Positions 1-5,982 of a stretch of DNA of 5,982 bases are shown piece after piece. The notes below the pieces were generated by a model. It made no database searches and was not told where the DNA came from. It saw only the letters and a list, made by a program, of their open reading frames with translations. A program made the position numbers and the translations under genes. Each line of letters starts with the position of its first letter. The first letter of the stretch is position 1. The stretch lies in NCBI GenBank assembly GCA_900555005.1, contig USJM01000114.1:1-5982 (forward strand). The letters run 5' to 3'. Origin of the DNA: an uncultured Lachnospiraceae bacterium (GTDB taxonomy: Bacteria; Bacillota_A; Clostridia; Lachnospirales; Lachnospiraceae).

Positions 1-1779
1 TTCATCGACGAGCTGCACACCATTGTCGGCGCGGGCAGCGCCGAGGGGGCGGTGGACGCGGCGAACATCCTAAAGCCCGCGCTCGGGCGCGGGGAGATCC
101 GCGTCATCGGCGCGACGACGCTCGAGGAGTACCGAAAATTCATCGAAAAGGACGCCGCGCTCGAGCGGCGCTTCCAGAGCGTGCAGGTCGGCGAGCCGGA
201 CGAGAAGCAGGCGATGCAGATTTTGCATGGCCTGCGGCCAAAGTACGAGGCGTATCACGGCCTTTCCATCGAGGACGAGGCCCTGCGCACGGCGGTGACG
301 CTCTCAAAGCGGTATCTGCCCGACCGTTTTTTGCCGGATAAGGCTATCGACCTGGTCGATGAGGCCTGCGCCCAGATCAAGACAGAGATGGATTCCCTTC
401 CAGCTGAACTGGATGAAATGAACCGGCGCATCATGCAGATGCAGATTGAGGAGACGGCGCTGAAGAAGGAGACAGACAATGCCTCAAAGGAGCGTCTGGC
501 TAATCTTCAGAAGGAGCTGGCAGATCTCCAGGAAAAGTTCAAGGCTGAGAAGGCACAGTGGGAGAATGAGAAGGCTGTCGTCAGCCGCCGCAGTCAGCTG
601 CGCGAACAGATCGAGCAGATAGGCAAGCAGATTGAGGCAGCCAAGCAGAGATCCGACCTGAATGAAGCAGCACGCTTGCAGTATGGGGAGCTTCCGAAAC
701 TGAAGGCGGAACTTGACAAGGAGGAGGACAGTCTGAAGAAGAAGGATTTGTCCCTTGTCCATGAGGCGGTAACGGAGGATGAAATCGCCCGGGTGGTCAG
801 CAGGTGGACCGGTATTCCGGTTGCAAAGCTGAACCAGGGTGAGCGGCAGAAAATTTTACAACTCGGGAGTAAGCTTCATGAACGTGTCATCGGCCAGGAT
901 GAGGCGGTGACAAAGGTTGTGGACGCGATTCTCAGATCCAAAGCCGGGATCAAGGATCCGACACGTCCGATCGGCTCCTTCCTGTTTCTCGGTCCGACCG
1001 GTGTCGGGAAGACAGAGCTTGCGAAAGCGCTCGCACAGAATCTGTTTGATGATGAGAACAATATGGTACGGATTGATATGAGCGAGTACATGGAGAAGTT
1101 CTCCGTGTCCCGGCTGATCGGAGCACCTCCGGGATATGTCGGGTATGATGAGGGCGGACAGCTGACAGAGGCAGTGAGACGTCATCCGTACTCGGTTGTC
1201 CTGTTCGATGAGATCGAAAAGGCGCATCCTGATGTCTTCAACATCCTGCTTCAGGTTCTGGACGACGGACGGATCACGGATTCACAGGGCAGGACGGTCG
1301 ACTTCAAGAATACGATCCTGATTATGACCTCGAATATCGGGTCACAATATCTTCTCAATGGGATTGAGAAGAATGGAGAGATATCGGAGACTGTCCGGTC
1401 AGAGGTTGATGCAGAGCTGAAGACACACTTCAGACCAGAGTTTTTGAACAGGCTGGATGAGATTATTCTATTCCATCCGCTGTCGAAGGAAAATATTGGC
1501 GGGATCATAGACCTGATGATGAAGGAGCTGAACCGCAGGTTAAAAGGTCAGGGAATAACGCTGAAGCTGACAGACGCAGCGAAGCAGTCTGTCATAGAGG
1601 GTGGATATGATCCGGCGTTCGGCGCTCGTCCGCTTCGCAGGTATCTGCAGAAGAATGTAGAGACACTTGCTGCAAAACTGATCCTGCAGGGCGATGTGCT
1701 GGACGGAGACACCATCCTTGTGGATGCGAAGGATGGGAAACTCAGCGCAGACGTTGTACATGCTGACAAGGAAGCTTGA
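1..1779 (+). CDS. clpB: ATP-dependent disaggregase ClpB (Hsp100), 5' end outside the window
   Basis: ClpB is a cytoplasmic hexameric AAA+ ATPase that pulls proteins out of aggregates together with DnaK/DnaJ/GrpE. The frame is open from base 1 and gives 592 residues; the family is about 860 long, so roughly the first 270 (N-domain and NBD1 Walker A) are missing. Visible in order, numbering from base 1: NBD1 Walker B FIDELHT (1-7), NBD1 arginine-finger region LERRFQ (54-59), the long charged M-domain coiled coil (about 120-245) that separates ClpB from ClpA, NBD2 Walker A GPTGVGKT (331-338), pore loop GYVGYDEGG (about 378-386), Walker B LFDEIE (401-406), sensor 1 region TSNIGSQ (443-449) and sensor 2 GARPLRR (541-547). 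All key NBD2 residues are present and there is no frameshift. The first ~108 codons have much higher third-position GC than the rest (see 320-372). The gene is convergent with the membrane protein downstream. Identity is secure; the source organism of the first 350 bases is not. Confidence 0.97.
320..372. other. Composition break inside clpB
   Basis: By hand count about nine in ten codons upstream of ~325 end in G or C, with gcg, cgc, ctc and ggc dominant. From ~370 on only about six in ten do, and codons such as gat, gaa, aca, ctt and gca become common. The switch falls in the highly conserved stretch [12 protein letters not shown] after NBD1, where clpB genes of different species share long nucleotide matches. 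This suits an assembly join or homologous recombination between two clpB genes. The protein stays in frame across it. Confidence 0.55.
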
Positions 1780-1805
1780 AACAGGAAAGGTTAAGGAGAC
1801 TGAAG

Positions 1806-1833
1806 AACCGGGGATGGCCGGTCACCGGTTTTT
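1806..1833 (+). terminator. Candidate rho-independent terminator of clpB
   Basis: AACCGG at 1806-1811 can pair with CCGGTT at 1825-1830, followed by a short T run (1829-1833). A tighter alternative pairs ACCGG 1807-1811 with CCGGT 1818-1822 around a 6-base loop. It begins 27 bases after the clpB stop. On the minus strand the same hairpin overlaps the restored stop of the membrane protein gene (1822-1824), so it may serve both convergent genes. The T run is short, hence moderate confidence. Confidence 0.5.
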
Positions 1834-3053
1834 CAGCCAGTCGATCAGAATGGACGCTCCGGAAGAGATCACCGCATAGAGCGCAAGTGGAAGAAACGTC
1901 GATGCTCCGTGAAGTGATCTGAGATAAAAGGCTGTCGGAAGGCTGCCTGCAGAGCGGGGACGATCTGGAGGTCAAAAAAGACCGGCGTCAGAAAAAGGCA
2001 GCCCATCACGACGATTGGGATGGAGGCGGAGAAAAGCGTCATTTTTCCTGTCAGGATGCGGACCAGATTGCTGAACCCGCAGACCGCAGGAATGTAGAGA
2101 AGAAATGGTGCAAGCTCTGACAGGCCGGATCCGACTCCTGAGACGGACAAGGCGATGAAGGCAAAGAGTCCTCCATCCACGACCGGAATCAGGAGATACA
2201 GATAGTGAAGCCAGGGCCTGAGTGAAGGAGACAGCCACACAAAGAGCTGTCGCTGGTTGTCCTGCATCAGAAAGAGGCAGGCGGCAAAGCAGATCAGGAT
2301 CAGCGTGATGGCAAGAAGGCCTCTCAGCGGGGACAGGTAGTAGGTGTTGAGTTCCTGGTCCCGGATCAGGTCGCCATTGAGATAGGAGAGCTGGAAAAAA
2401 TTGCTGGTAACCAGGGAATGCGAAAGCGCATGATCAAGCCAGGCGTCTCTCTCCTTTTTATCGGTCGAAAAACCATCTGCATGGACATCCATCCATGCTT
2501 TCAGAACATATCTTTCAATTTCCGGATAAAGTTTTCCAAATAATTGTTCTTTTTCCAACTTCGTGACAATGTCATTGCTGCCGCAGATGACGCGAATCGC
2601 ATGTTCCTGTATGCCTTTTTTATCGACCGTCTCAGAATCGGGGGCTCCGATGGCCTGACCGAGGATGCTGAGTGCGCTTCCCGCATCCGTGTCTGAGACA
2701 GAAGCATAGGCTGAAAACAGGGCAGAAAGATCCTTTGGGAACAGAAATCCGAGGCGGACATCTCCGTTGTATACGGCCTGTCTGAGCTGTTTTTCATCAG
2801 GATACCGGATGTAGCGGACTGCGCTGCTTTGATCAGAACGTGTCAGCTGGGCCATCACCCGGGAAGTCAGTTCGTCCTCCGGCTGACCAGGGCAGAATCC
2901 GACGGACAGCAGTGCTGTGCTTTCACCGGGAATCTGGCGTGCCAGCAGGGCGGTCAGCGGGATCAGACACAGAAGAAAAAGAAACAACGGTTTTTTCAGA
3001 AAGCGGCGGTTCAAAAGGAATGACCAGAGCAATATTTTTCTGATAGATTTCAT
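1822..3053 (-). CDS. ABC-2-type membrane protein (putative ABC transporter permease), frameshifted near the 3' end
   Basis: Not recognised to gene level. The start at 3053 (MKSIRK...) is chosen because GGAG lies 6 bases upstream and the ATG overlaps the previous stop as ATGA. One membrane helix (residues ~21-38) is followed by a polar, probably extracytoplasmic region (~40-240) and a cluster of helices at ~244-263, 283-304, 313-333 and 341-360. One helix, a large outside loop, then a C-terminal helix bundle is the layout of ABC-2 permeases. As written the frame ends at 1869 after an unlikely basic tail. One missing base near 1948-1950 moves the reading to a frame giving LPTAFYLRSLHG, a last helix (FLPLALYAVISSGASILIDW), and a stop at 1822-1824, about 411 residues in all. 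LPTAxYLR before the final helix is what I would expect of an ABC-2 permease. No ATPase gene is in the window, so substrate and export role are unknown. Confidence 0.6.
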
Positions 3054-3109
3054 GAGTGGCTCCATAACAGTTTCTTTTTTCTCAGGCAGGTTGCAAGCAG
3101 GATGAAAAC
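3050..3109 (-). CDS. C-terminal remnant of a lost upstream membrane protein gene
   Basis: The last ~20 codons before the TGA at 3052-3050 encode a hydrophobic stretch (VVFILLATCL) and then a basic tail (RKKKLLWSHS), the usual end of a membrane protein whose final helix exits into the cytoplasm. The stop overlaps the next start as ATGA, which points to translational coupling with the permease-like gene. The remnant was therefore probably its operon partner, perhaps a second permease. Its upstream part is absent: beyond ~3110 the frame continues into the antiporter from the other genome. Function cannot be told from so short a piece. Confidence 0.5.
   Translation of the reverse strand, partial: VFILLATCLRKKKLLWSHS
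3060..3063 (-). promoter_or_regulatory. Ribosome binding site GGAG for the membrane protein
   Basis: GGAG lies 6 bases before the ATG at 3053. It decides that start over the in-frame ATG at 3065, which has no comparable site, and over the open frame reaching 3200, whose extra codons are the antiporter gene read in another frame. A Shine-Dalgarno site also marks this side of the junction as Bacillota-like, unlike the AT-rich leaders to the right. Confidence 0.6.
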
Positions 3110-3116
3110 GACGGTC
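3107..3116. other. Junction between Bacillota-like and Bacteroides-like DNA
   Basis: On the minus strand the antiporter matches its family through GAFVMGSLLAET (to ~3113). The family then needs a polar segment of the type EAERIxHLxxP, but here an unrelated hydrophobic tail follows in the same frame. Codon use, GC content and translation signals change at the same place. No insertion-sequence ends, target duplication or attachment-site repeat is visible, so an assembly join is likelier than a mobile-element insertion. Confidence 0.75.
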
Positions 3117-3884
3117 TCTGCCAGCAGGGACCCCATGACAAAGGCTCCCAATGCGGCAGAAAATCCCGCTTTTGTCGCAATCATCACCATTCCCAGGCAA
3201 AGTCCCAGAGAGGTTATCAATAAAATCTCGTTGCTGGTGAAACGGCGTATCTTCTTCAGCAGGGTAGGTATCAGATAGATACCCAATGTCGACCAGAAAA
3301 TAAGGAAAGCGGCCAGCTTCAATATACTTTCCAGCATCTCCTTCCCTTCAAAATGTTTGCCTACCGCCAACGTGGAAAGAACAACCATCATCATACAGCC
3401 ACCAGATCTTCGATAACAAGAATCCCCAAGACAATGCCAGTGAATTTCTGTTGGAGAAGTCCCATATCATTGAAAGCCTTGAATACGATGGCCGTGGACG
3501 ACATGGACAACATTCCACCCAGAAAAATACTGCTCATGTGGGAGAACCCCATTGCATTCCCCGCTGTATAACCTATGAACATCATGCCACATACAATAGT
3601 GACAGTGGCAACGATAGCCGTAATGCCCACATTTATCAATTTCTTGAACGAAAAGTCCAGTCCCATCGCGAACAGCAGAAAAATGACACCGATGTCCGCC
3701 CATATTTTGATATTGGCAGGATCGGAAACAGTCGGGACCAGGGAAACGGAAGGACCCGCCATAATACCGGCTACAATGTAGCCCAATATGACCGGTTGCT
3801 TCAGCCACTGAAAATGACGGTTACAATACCGGCAATAATCAGAATTATGGCAAGATCCGATATTAAGGGAGCAACTTCTGACAT
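3110..3884 (-). CDS. Kef-type monovalent cation:proton antiporter (CPA2 family), frameshifted and truncated
   Basis: An inner-membrane exchanger of the CPA2/KefB type that moves K+ or Na+ against H+. The start is ATG 3884 (MSEVAPLISDLAI...), 13 bases after the phosphofructokinase stop. The first helix runs to ~residue 25, then one missing base near 3805-3809 creates a false stop at 3801-3803. The next frame (3804-3394) continues LKQPVILGYIVAGIMAGP, the DIGVIFLLFAMGLDFSFKK segment, SSTAIVFKAF and VIEDLVAV. A second missing base near 3395 shifts the frame again, after which MMVVLSTLAV... runs to GSLLAET at ~3113. Repaired, this is about 259 residues, part of the membrane domain only; the remaining helices and any TrkA-N regulatory domain are lost at the junction. 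Proteins of this type usually exceed 500 residues. Each repair restores family sequence, so sequencing error is likelier than decay. The exact ion is not shown. Confidence 0.85.
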
Positions 3885-3897
3885 GTTGACGGCTATT

Positions 3898-4880
3898 TTA
3901 TATCGATAATTCGTTAAGGACCCGGATCAGGCTTTTGTCAATAGTCTTGTCCTTTTTGATTGCCTGGACAAAAGGAACATAAACAATCTCGTTGTTCCGT
4001 ATGCCTATCATAACATTCCGCTGGTCTTCCATTAAGGCCTGGATTGCGGCTTCACCCAGCCGGCTTGCCAGTATACGGTCATTGGCACTCGGAGTACACC
4101 CCGTTGCAGATGGCCCAAGATAGAAACCCTGACATCATACCCGGGATATTCCTTCTTTACCCGGTCGGCGTAATATATGGCACCTCCATTCTTGTTTTCA
4201 GGACTTTCGGTCACAATTACGATGCTGCTGTTTTTCGTCTTTCTGAATCCACGTCCGATGAATGTTTCCAACTGGTCCACGTCCGTCCTGTCCTCCGGGA
4301 TGATGGCCGCTTCAGCACCGGAAGCTATTGCGCTGTTTTGTGCCAGGAAGCCCGCATCACGCCCCATTACTTCGACAAAGAAGATACGGTCATGGGAGGT
4401 TGCCGTGTCCCTGATTTTATCCACGCATTCCACAATGGTGTTCAATGCCGTATCATATCCTATGGTAAAATCGGTACCATATAGGTCATTGTCAATGGTG
4501 CCGGGCAATCCTATGCACGTCACATCATACTCCTCCGCAAAGATACGGGCTCCCGTCAGGGAACCGTCTCCACCAATAATTATCAAAGCATTGATGTTCT
4601 CTTTCTGTATGACCTTATAAGCTTTCTTGCGTCCTTCGGGAGTGGTGAAAGTCTCGGAGCGAGCTGTTTTCAGTATGGTGCCTCCCCTCTGGATAATGCT
4701 ACTTACATCTTCCGTCGTGAGTTCTTTCACTTCACCGGCAATCAGCCCCTCGTAACCTCTATAAATTCCTTTCACTTTAAATCCGTTAAAAATGGCGGCG
4801 CGGGTCACGGCACGGATAGCCGCGTTCATTCCTGAAGCATCCCCTCCGGAAGTCAGAATTCCAATATACTTGTTATCCAT
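3898..4880 (-). CDS. pfkA: ATP-dependent 6-phosphofructokinase, one frameshift near the C-terminus
   Basis: It phosphorylates fructose 6-phosphate to fructose 1,6-bisphosphate, the committed step of glycolysis, in the cytoplasm. From ATG 4880: [11 protein letters not shown] (11-21) is the N-terminal nucleotide loop; GGDGS (103-107) with Gly after Asp is typical of ATP rather than pyrophosphate users; PGTIDND (126-132) holds the catalytic Asp, and Gly where pyrophosphate enzymes have Lys again says ATP; MGRDAG (172-177) is a substrate-binding motif; LGHLQRG lies just before the break. As written, the frame ends at 4032 after an aberrant tail. One base missing at about 4096-4097, after codon 261, restores [14 protein letters not shown] and a family-like end (...[10 protein letters not shown]) with a stop at 3898-3900. 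The repaired length of ~327 is normal for the family. The gene lies 25 bases after the sigma gene and 13 before the antiporter, all on one strand. The leader is AT-rich with no Shine-Dalgarno site, as usual in Bacteroidota. Confidence 0.93.
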
Positions 4881-4905
4881 AATTTGTTTTTTATATTTTA
4901 ATTAA

Positions 4906-5400
4906 TCAGGCAAAATCAGAAAGCAACTGTTTTAGCCTTTTTCTGCTATAAAAGATACGGCTTTTTATCGACCCAGTGACACTCTTATCTTTGCGGCTAT
5001 TTCCCGATATTTGACTCCGGTACAACATAAAAACGACATAATGTGCTTTAGGCAATGTTTTAAGGGCTTCCCTTATCTCTTTTGCATCATGCCCGTTATC
5101 CACGAAAATGAAAGAGTCGTCCCTTAACAGGAAATGATATTTAGGTTCTGATAATACATATAAATTCCCTCGTATTTTCTTTGTCCGGCAATTATTGATA
5201 AATGCATTGCGCATGATGGTATACATCCATCCTTTGAAATTAGTATCGGGCGTATACTTCTCTTCGTTATCCAGAGCTTTCAGGGATGTTTCCTGCAAGA
5301 GGTCGTTGGCTTCTTCACGGTCGGAAGTAAGTTTGTATGCAAAACGCAATAAATCGTCTTGAACTCCGAGCAGGTCTTTTTTAAATGTTATATTGTTCAT
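4906..5400 (-). CDS. ECF-type (sigma-70 family) RNA polymerase sigma factor, with a slipped frame in region 4.2
   Basis: A small two-domain sigma factor that directs RNA polymerase to its own promoters. The start at 5400 (MNNITFKKDL...) gives 164 residues and matches where I recall Bacteroides relatives starting; the open frame upstream to 5481 is leader DNA. Region 2 covers ~13-75: LLRFAYKLTSDREEANDLLQET, then NFKGWMYTIMRNAFINN, the core-binding and -10 recognition helices. Region 4 covers ~107-162, starting EIREALKTLPKAHYVVFML and ending SIKSRIFYSRKRLKQLL. Between them, residues ~130-142 read as nonsense; another frame gives KYREIAAKIRVSLG, the expected helix-turn-helix. Two slips, at ~5013 and in the CCC run 4972-4974, cancel so the frame stays open. 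No anti-sigma gene is adjacent. It is first in a likely sigma-pfkA-antiporter transcript. Its targets are unknown. Confidence 0.88.
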   Translation of the reverse strand: MNNITFKKDLLGVQDDLLRFAYKLTSDREEANDLLQETSLKALDNEEKYTPDTNFKGWMYTIMRNAFINNCRTKKIRGNLYVLSEPKYHFLLRDDSFIFVDNGHDAKEIREALKTLPKAHYVVFMLYRSQISGNSRKDKSVTGSIKSRIFYSRKRLKQLLSDFA

Positions 5401-5435
5401 ATGTGCTATGTTTTTTTTCGTTAATCTTGATATTG

Positions 5436-5443
5436 CAAGTTTA
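5436..5443 (-). promoter_or_regulatory. Weak candidate -7 element for the sigma factor transcript
   Basis: TAAACTTG on the minus strand, 35 bases before the start at 5400, differs from the Bacteroidota -7 consensus TAnnTTTG at one base. I see no good TTTG at the -33 spacing, so this is only a possible promoter. Transcription might depend on another sigma factor or on an activator. Confidence 0.25.
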
Positions 5444-5491
5444 CGGAAGTTTTCTCTTTCAGGCAGACGGATTTCAAACACACTTTAGGGG

Positions 5492-5515
5492 AAAAACTAT
5501 CAATTGACAGTTTTT
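5492..5515. repeat. 24-bp near-perfect palindrome, candidate operator
   Basis: Two 12-base arms meet at CAATTG (5501-5506). Eleven of the twelve pairs match, the exception being 5499/5508; the outer parts are an A5 run and a T5 run. It sits between divergent genes, 92 bases before the sigma start and 99 bases before the acyltransferase start. It is about 40 bases upstream of the -33 element of the acyltransferase promoter. Position and symmetry suit a dimeric regulator site. It could also be a hairpin, since the T run resembles a terminator, though no gene ends here. Confidence 0.4.
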
Positions 5516-5557
5516 AGGTGCTATTTGATAGATTTCGGGTGCAGTTTTCTTCATTTT

Positions 5558-5590
5558 TTTGCGATTAATTAAAAAGATGAGTTAATTTTG
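5558..5590 (+). promoter_or_regulatory. Bacteroidota-type promoter of the acyltransferase gene
   Basis: TTTG at 5558-5561 is followed after 21 bases by TAATTTTG at 5583-5590, an exact match to the Bacteroidota -33 TTTG / -7 TAnnTTTG consensus recognised by its primary sigma factor. Transcription would begin near 5596, giving a leader of about 20 bases. No strong Shine-Dalgarno site precedes the ATG at 5615. This is the best evidence that the right part of the window comes from Bacteroidota. Confidence 0.65.
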
Positions 5591-5614
5591 CGCATTCATT
5601 TCATCAAAAGAAGA

Positions 5615-5982
5615 ATGGCTGACGACTCTTTATTTTTGATTGACATAGACAAGATACTTCGGGAAAAGGCTCCGAAGCAGTCTAAGTATATCCCCAAGTT
5701 CGTGGTTTCTTATTTGAAGCATATCGTTCTCAAGAGGAATTGAATGTCTTTTTGCGGGAGTCGAAAGATAAAGTCGGTGTAGATTTCCTGAAAGCTTGTC
5801 TGGAGTTCCTTGATGCCAATATTGTGGTAAAGGGGGAGGAAAATCTGCCTAAAGAAGGGCTTTATACTTTTGTGTCCAACCATCCCCTGGGTGGGCAGGA
5901 TGGAGTGGCACTGGGTTATGTCCTGGGCTCCTTTTATGGTGGCAAGGTGAAATATATGGTCAACGACCTGCTGATGAACCTG
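5615..5982 (+). CDS. Lysophospholipid acyltransferase-like protein (PlsC/hemolysin-like), frameshifted, 3' end outside the window
   Basis: Probably a membrane-associated acyltransferase that moves a fatty acyl chain onto a lysolipid or a similar acceptor. The start is ATG 5615 (MADDSLFLIDIDKILREKAP...), behind a good promoter. The first 38 codons run to KHIV; then CT at 5729-5730 lacks one base and the written frame stops at TGA 5741-5743. The next frame from 5731 continues QEELNVFLRESKDKVG... to the end of the window, adding 84 codons. It contains NHPLGGQDG (N at about residue 89 of the repaired protein), the catalytic His-Asp motif of the family in its HX5D spacing. As I recall, that spacing is seen in hemolysin-like members, while classical PlsC has HX4D. 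The likely catalytic His and Asp are present; the remaining acyltransferase motifs lie beyond the window. Substrate is not known. It is divergent from the sigma gene. Confidence 0.8.

Follow-up and report, generated by a model that had tools for sequence, protein, structure and literature searches.

A 6-kb contig that most likely joins sequences from at least four gut bacteria at short similar stretches

The 6-kb contig analyzed here is most likely an assembly artefact in which at least four gut bacteria were joined at short similar stretches. Judging from sequence comparisons, we put the probability that an assembler combined sequences of at least four gut bacteria, with all three joins artefactual, at about 0.95; this figure and those given to the alternatives overlap, and their total is not one. 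Since the contig is most likely an assembly artefact, the Bacteroides/Bacillota fusion gene noticed in a sequence-only reading is almost certainly not real. The window, by which we mean the whole stretch of 5982 nucleotides, appears to be the entire contig, because its own sigma protein (P0161) is assigned to a contig of 5982.

Four pieces with sharp switches between them

The contig consists of four pieces (A to D) that meet at three joins (A/B, B/C, and C/D), with sharp switches at the joins and native continuations in the matching loci. The loci used for comparison include L004, from Porcincola intestinalis (Bacillota, Lachnospiraceae; genome G001); L005, from an uncultured Lachnospiraceae; L036, from G617, a genome of the class of Porcincola; and L001, the nearest Bacteroidales locus found. 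The features are as follows.

1..353, plus strand: piece A, the D1 part of a Clp ATPase; 343/353 bases identical to L036 (G617)
346..353: join A/B, within the Clp frame; L036 and L004 have 8 bases exactly in common
354..1779, plus strand: middle and C-terminal part of a Porcincola-like clpB (ClpB model)
1872..3053, minus strand: membrane protein gene of piece B; 86% to L004 and L005
3050..3110, minus strand: tail of the upstream ABC-2 permease (native 429-codon frame in L005, PF12698)
3111..3131: join B/C; the window equals L001 from 3111, and the relatives of piece B still partly match
3111..3884, minus strand: N-terminal part of a CPA2 cation:proton antiporter, frame broken (PF00999; L001 annotation)
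3898..4880, minus strand: pfkA (6-phosphofructokinase), frame broken by a single-base gap (PF00365, E 1.9e-98; pfkA of L001)
4906..5229, minus strand: C-terminal half of an island-type ECF sigma factor (comparison with L001)
5206..5229: join C/D, inside the ECF sigma gene, at the motif NFKGWMYTIMRN; shared 24-base stretch
5230..5400, minus strand: N-terminal half of a chromosomal-type Bacteroides ECF sigma factor; 58 residues equal to P0259
5588..5982, plus strand: start of a glsA-like lyso-glycine lipid O-acyltransferase gene (NF053697)

Base counts against L036, L005, L001, and L003 showed that identity changes abruptly between A and B, B and C, and C and D, and the GC content of the four pieces runs from 0.646 through 0.524 and 0.456 to 0.399. 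A shift in base composition within a single genome was ruled out by the matches to separate parents. The two sides of the contig are best matched by different organisms. When their taxa were compared separately, as the sequence-only reading had proposed, they fell into different phyla, Lachnospiraceae and Bacteroidota, and none of the genomes and records searched combined the two; the chimeric contig that it had taken as the simplest interpretation is thus upheld. Its picture of two joined sources, however, gave way to one of at least four sources and three joins, those near 346-353 and 5206-5229 being absent from it. The contig would indeed mislead claims about taxonomy, gene context, or transfer, at three joins rather than one. 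No RNA features and no tRNA were found within the window, and 16S was found in none of the four genomes in which it was looked for (0/4).

The join inside the antiporter frame

The minus-strand frame 3394-3050 encodes a CPA2 antiporter (PF00999, E 1.8e-8, residues 2-95) followed by the tail VFILLATCLRKKKLLWSHS, and its stop (3052-3050) shares bases with the ATG (3053-3051) at which the following gene begins. The reported change from a Bacteroides-like antiporter to a Bacillota-like membrane-protein tail with a stop/start overlap is therefore plainly present in this frame. In L004 and L005, a near-identical tail closes a 429-codon open frame with the same stop/start overlap, and in L005 this frame is an ABC-2 permease (PF12698). 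The antiporter of L001 continues instead as GSLLAETVEAEKIV and onward, to 749 codons including the stop. Relatives of both parents (L004 and L005 on one side and L001 on the other) carry intact native genes straight across the site, and the genes on either side of the join are unrelated membrane-protein genes.

Because the window is Lachnospiraceae-like up to 3110 and identical to L001 over 3111-3200 (90/90), the join lies within 3111-3131. In this overlap stretch, 17/21 bases match L005 and 13/18 match L004, both of them relatives rather than the true B parent; chance alone would give a quarter, so the true parents probably have much of 3111-3131 in common. The junction had been placed at 3107-3116 inside one reading frame; it does fall within one frame, but a few bases away from that site. 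The accompanying claim that GC and family match change together here was borne out as a step in GC from 0.524 to 0.456 and a switch from Lachnospiraceae to Bacteroidales matches.

Piece B (approximately 354-3110) is identical to L005 at 2499/2757 bases and to L004 at 2459/2757, with one single-base gap relative to L005 (1942) and two relative to L004 (1815 and 1943), and its source would be a Porcincola-like Lachnospiraceae. The ClpB model matched window 1-1776 with an E value of 1e-276 and 920.6 bits, which is under the cut-off for the full-length protein. The membrane protein encoded at 1872-3053 has a 97% relative (P0001) and matched no Pfam or NCBIfam model; PF12698 was detected in 4 of 40 relatives (P0020, P0022, P0023, and P0040), and the protein is probably an ABC-2 permease partner. 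A genome-contig scan with this protein gave 32 pattern matches, 2 of which encode a relative (L004 and L005), and a search of solved structures led nowhere, with a single match at E 0.31. Its gene adjoins clpB in the window and an ABC-2 permease in L005. Four of the 40 relatives have taxon-bearing names, three of them Lachnospiraceae and one Clostridia.

Piece C is identical to L001 at 2094/2118 bases, counted over 3111-5228. Relative to L001, the window is without single bases at four places in 2.1 kb (3394, 3810, 4098, and 4971). The first two break the antiporter frame and the third breaks pfkA; the fourth moves the point at which the sigma frame stops, which comes earlier in L001 than in the window. 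These gaps are a sign of poor consensus.

When the whole window was searched against G001, G002, and two Bacteroidales records, the B/C join was present in none of the four (0/4). G001 matched 1-3128 and G002 matched 1-3131, each with Clp paralogues in addition; the first Bacteroidales record matched 3111-5345 and one 23-base stretch within piece C, and the second matched 5186-5981. Each of the 19 genomes of the Porcincola-like genus to which G001 belongs had some match to window 1-3600, and in no genome did a match extend beyond 3131 (0/19). Furthermore, a search with 2950-3700, in which two candidates were scored per genome, found the join in 0/299 genomes of the family of G001. Five of these 299 matched: two relatives stopped at 3131 and 3128, and three matches comprised 25-34 bases. 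The whole-genome searches for this join covered the Lachnospiraceae side, plus the two Bacteroidales records. Within that scope, the antiporter/permease order was not present in any independent genome searched, and, as the sequence-only reading had expected of a chimera, no single genome or record contained both sides.

The joins within the Clp and sigma genes

Piece A, so close to L036, is identical to L005 at only 224/353 bases. In its first three blocks of 100 bases the window matches L005 at 67, 69, and 52 positions, compared with 90-96 per 100 over 401-1700. L036 is identical to the window at all bases of 281-353 and then unlike it until 769, having its own native continuation past the join in its own genome; the next 45 bases after 353 are matched almost completely by L004 and L005. 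One alignment spanning 1-3131 had spoken for no join within clpB, a view overturned by the per-100-base counts and by the match to G617. When window 1-420 was compared with 391 genomes from the class that includes G001, G318 scored best (74% over 1-366); among 300 genomes of the family of G318, G617 matched window 1-365 at 96%, and the next best reached 78%. A whole-window search of G617 returned 1-365 and Clp paralogues, and a search with the piece A region of 18 genomes of the genus of G617 found nothing better than G617 itself.

The UVR motif goes with ClpC. A marginal UVR motif in the L036 protein (PF02151, 21.9 bits versus a cut-off of 21.5), together with a middle region that is about 190 bases shorter, suggests that the piece A gene is probably ClpC-like rather than ClpB; counting against ClpC, the best NCBIfam model for this protein is ClpB, below its cut-off. 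Whether A is ClpC or ClpB, pieces A and B are from different organisms.

At the third join, the stretch 5206-5229 is identical to L001 at 24/24 bases and to L003 at 23/24, and L001 diverges from 5230. Over 5229-5345, the window matches L001 at 81/117 bases versus 92/117 for L003, and piece D as a whole is identical to L003 at 566/753 aligned bases. L003 has the same gene order as the window, with a sigma gene divergent to a glsA-like acyltransferase gene. The glsA-like fragment matched NF053697 at E 1.2e-29 (103 bits versus a cut-off of 260), and its frame changes near 5740 relative to L003. Piece D comes from another Bacteroides. The first 58 sigma residues of the window are identical in P0259 and in 18 other proteins listed among the best 120 of 3499 matches, with differing C halves; since 19 listed proteins share these residues, P0259 is one candidate D parent, unproven.

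A search of the plasmid collection with 3108-5982, which bears on join C/D and not on B/C, yielded 15 matching records, none over 80% of the query.

The Bacteroidales island, the sigma hybrids, and the origin of the joins

We infer that the joins were made by the assembler, not by a cell or a library chimera. An assembler using a short word or overlap length would have crossed between genomes at shared short stretches: at a conserved Clp ATPase motif in A/B, at up to about 21 similar bases in two membrane-protein genes that are not related in B/C, and at a conserved stretch of about 24 bases of two related ECF sigma genes in C/D. Overlaps of up to about 21 bases (B/C) and about 24 bases (C/D) would point to a word length of about 20-24. 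As seen through relatives of the B and D parents, the stretches that may be shared comprise only 8 exact bases (A/B), 17/21 (B/C), and 23/24 (C/D). The reading frame is open across all three joins, which can be explained by chance (B/C) or by homology (A/B and C/D).

Piece C derives from the interior of a 38-kb island that encodes an integrase, a relaxase, and MobC. The reported lack of a mobile-element signature accordingly holds for the window itself but not for the source of its Bacteroidales piece, an integrase/mobilization island. The island spans 38,217 aligned columns at 99.73% identity between P. distasonis and P. massiliensis records of the same isolate series (L042 26092-50000 plus L047 1-14288, that is, NZ_OY725747.1 136092-174288, and L046 8856-47069), an identity that reflects either recent transfer or cross-contamination of assemblies. 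Its metabolic and stress cargo comprises methylglyoxal synthase, glgP, the antiporter, pfkA, the ECF sigma factor, Hsp20, gpmA, aldolase, and ferritin. A literature search found no on-topic publication on this island. The B/C join corresponds to record position 144,759 and the edge of the shared stretch to 136,092, which places the join in the interior of the island, about 8.7 kb from that edge; mobile-element insertion was ruled out on this ground. Plasmid origin was also rejected: the "plasmid" records behind L001 and L002 resemble chromosome pieces, the first carrying a ribosomal protein gene, and PLSDB types both as non-mobilizable despite the relaxase and mobC in the first.

The island sigma (L001 9839-10294, minus strand) has 151 residues and resembles P0203, a 600-member cluster; its tail differs from the tail of the longer P0213 in the way a frameshift would produce. 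No region-4 match to P0203 was found in Pfam, and the function of the island sigma may be altered. An island that occurs in several hosts and has about 24 bases in common with chromosomal sigma genes would be the kind of sequence that assemblers may misjoin.

A search with the window sigma protein gave 3499 matches, the best 120 of which were examined. Among these 120 listed proteins, 43 (the window's own included) have a C half of the island type attached to some other N half, of which there are 30 distinct versions; in 8 the N half is of the island type and the C half is not, and in 4 both halves are of this type. A further 19 have the window N half with a non-island C half, and 30 fit none of these classes. 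The class thresholds were chosen after the table of proteins had been viewed, and the classes omit 16/120 (10 without the motif and 6 with a short N half). As the 120 are the best of 3499, ranked by likeness to a hybrid, 43/120 is not a population frequency. The hybrids are joined at NFKGWMYTIMRN (window 4972-5400; proteins P0162-P0205). A literature search found no on-topic publication on sigma chimeras, and an IMG/VR scan with the sigma protein gave 49 pattern matches and no relative.

These hybrids bear on whether join C/D alone is real, the island having recombined with a resident Bacteroides sigma gene, with A/B and B/C as artefacts. We consider this unlikely; it is compatible with the assembly explanation for the reported site (B/C). 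In its favor, 42 other listed proteins among the best 120 of 3499 share the hybrid type and motif, and the longest contig exceeds 5 kb in 7/42 and measures 7-34 kb in 6/42. However, all 42 are one-member clusters on 1-6 contigs, from ena, jgi, or lgn sources and none from ncbi (0/42). The missing ncbi source is weak evidence, because only 4/120 listed proteins have one, and many unfused sigma proteins are likewise one-member clusters, making the contrast with the hybrids weak. Moreover, tblastn of the hybrid sigma against 72,556 plasmid-collection records gave no sigma match above 80% identity, and its two best matches were of the island type. More doubtful still is the broader proposal of repeated recombination between resident sigma genes and a mobilizable Bacteroidales island at a conserved motif in region 2; if true, sigma-factor halves would be swapped among gut bacteria, and the B/C join would still be an artefact. 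The hybrids at the same motif are probably a recurrent assembly trap. They suggest that mobile islands sharing short words with chromosomal relatives repeatedly trap metagenome assembly, which makes them worth screening for.

Physical chimeras formed in the laboratory by ligation, PCR, or whole-genome amplification and then sequenced are very improbable. Joins A/B and C/D do lie in homologous genes, as would follow from template switching, and join B/C has short similarity; nonetheless, bringing four organisms together at three joins in a single 6-kb consensus would require several independent chimeric molecules, and the recurrence of the sigma hybrid type on many database contigs would fit graph assembly better. 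Least credible of all is a real interphylum transfer of Bacteroidales DNA into a Lachnospiraceae genome with fusion of the antiporter to the permease tail: the source island, with its integrase, relaxase, and mobC and its 99.73% identity in records of two genera, may well move, yet this origin does not rescue the transfer because the join lies so far inside the shared island and not at a mobile-element boundary, A/B and C/D would require two further unrelated events within 6 kb, single-base gaps leave the antiporter and pfkA unreadable, and the family genomes searched (0/299) lack the join.

Like an interphylum transfer with gene fusion, the contig has an open frame mixing genes of two phyla; unlike one, it comes with no two-sided genome found, no element boundary, frame-broken cargo, and three unrelated joins. 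A parallel to the probable assembly artefact is described in passages of PMC7299287, according to which chimeric contigs arise where assembly graphs become connected through kmers in common, because of related species or sequencing errors. As in the shared-kmer contigs of those passages, several genomes are here linked at short words in one contig; unlike them, this contig brings together at least four sources from two phyla within 6 kb, and one of its joins lies between non-homologous genes.
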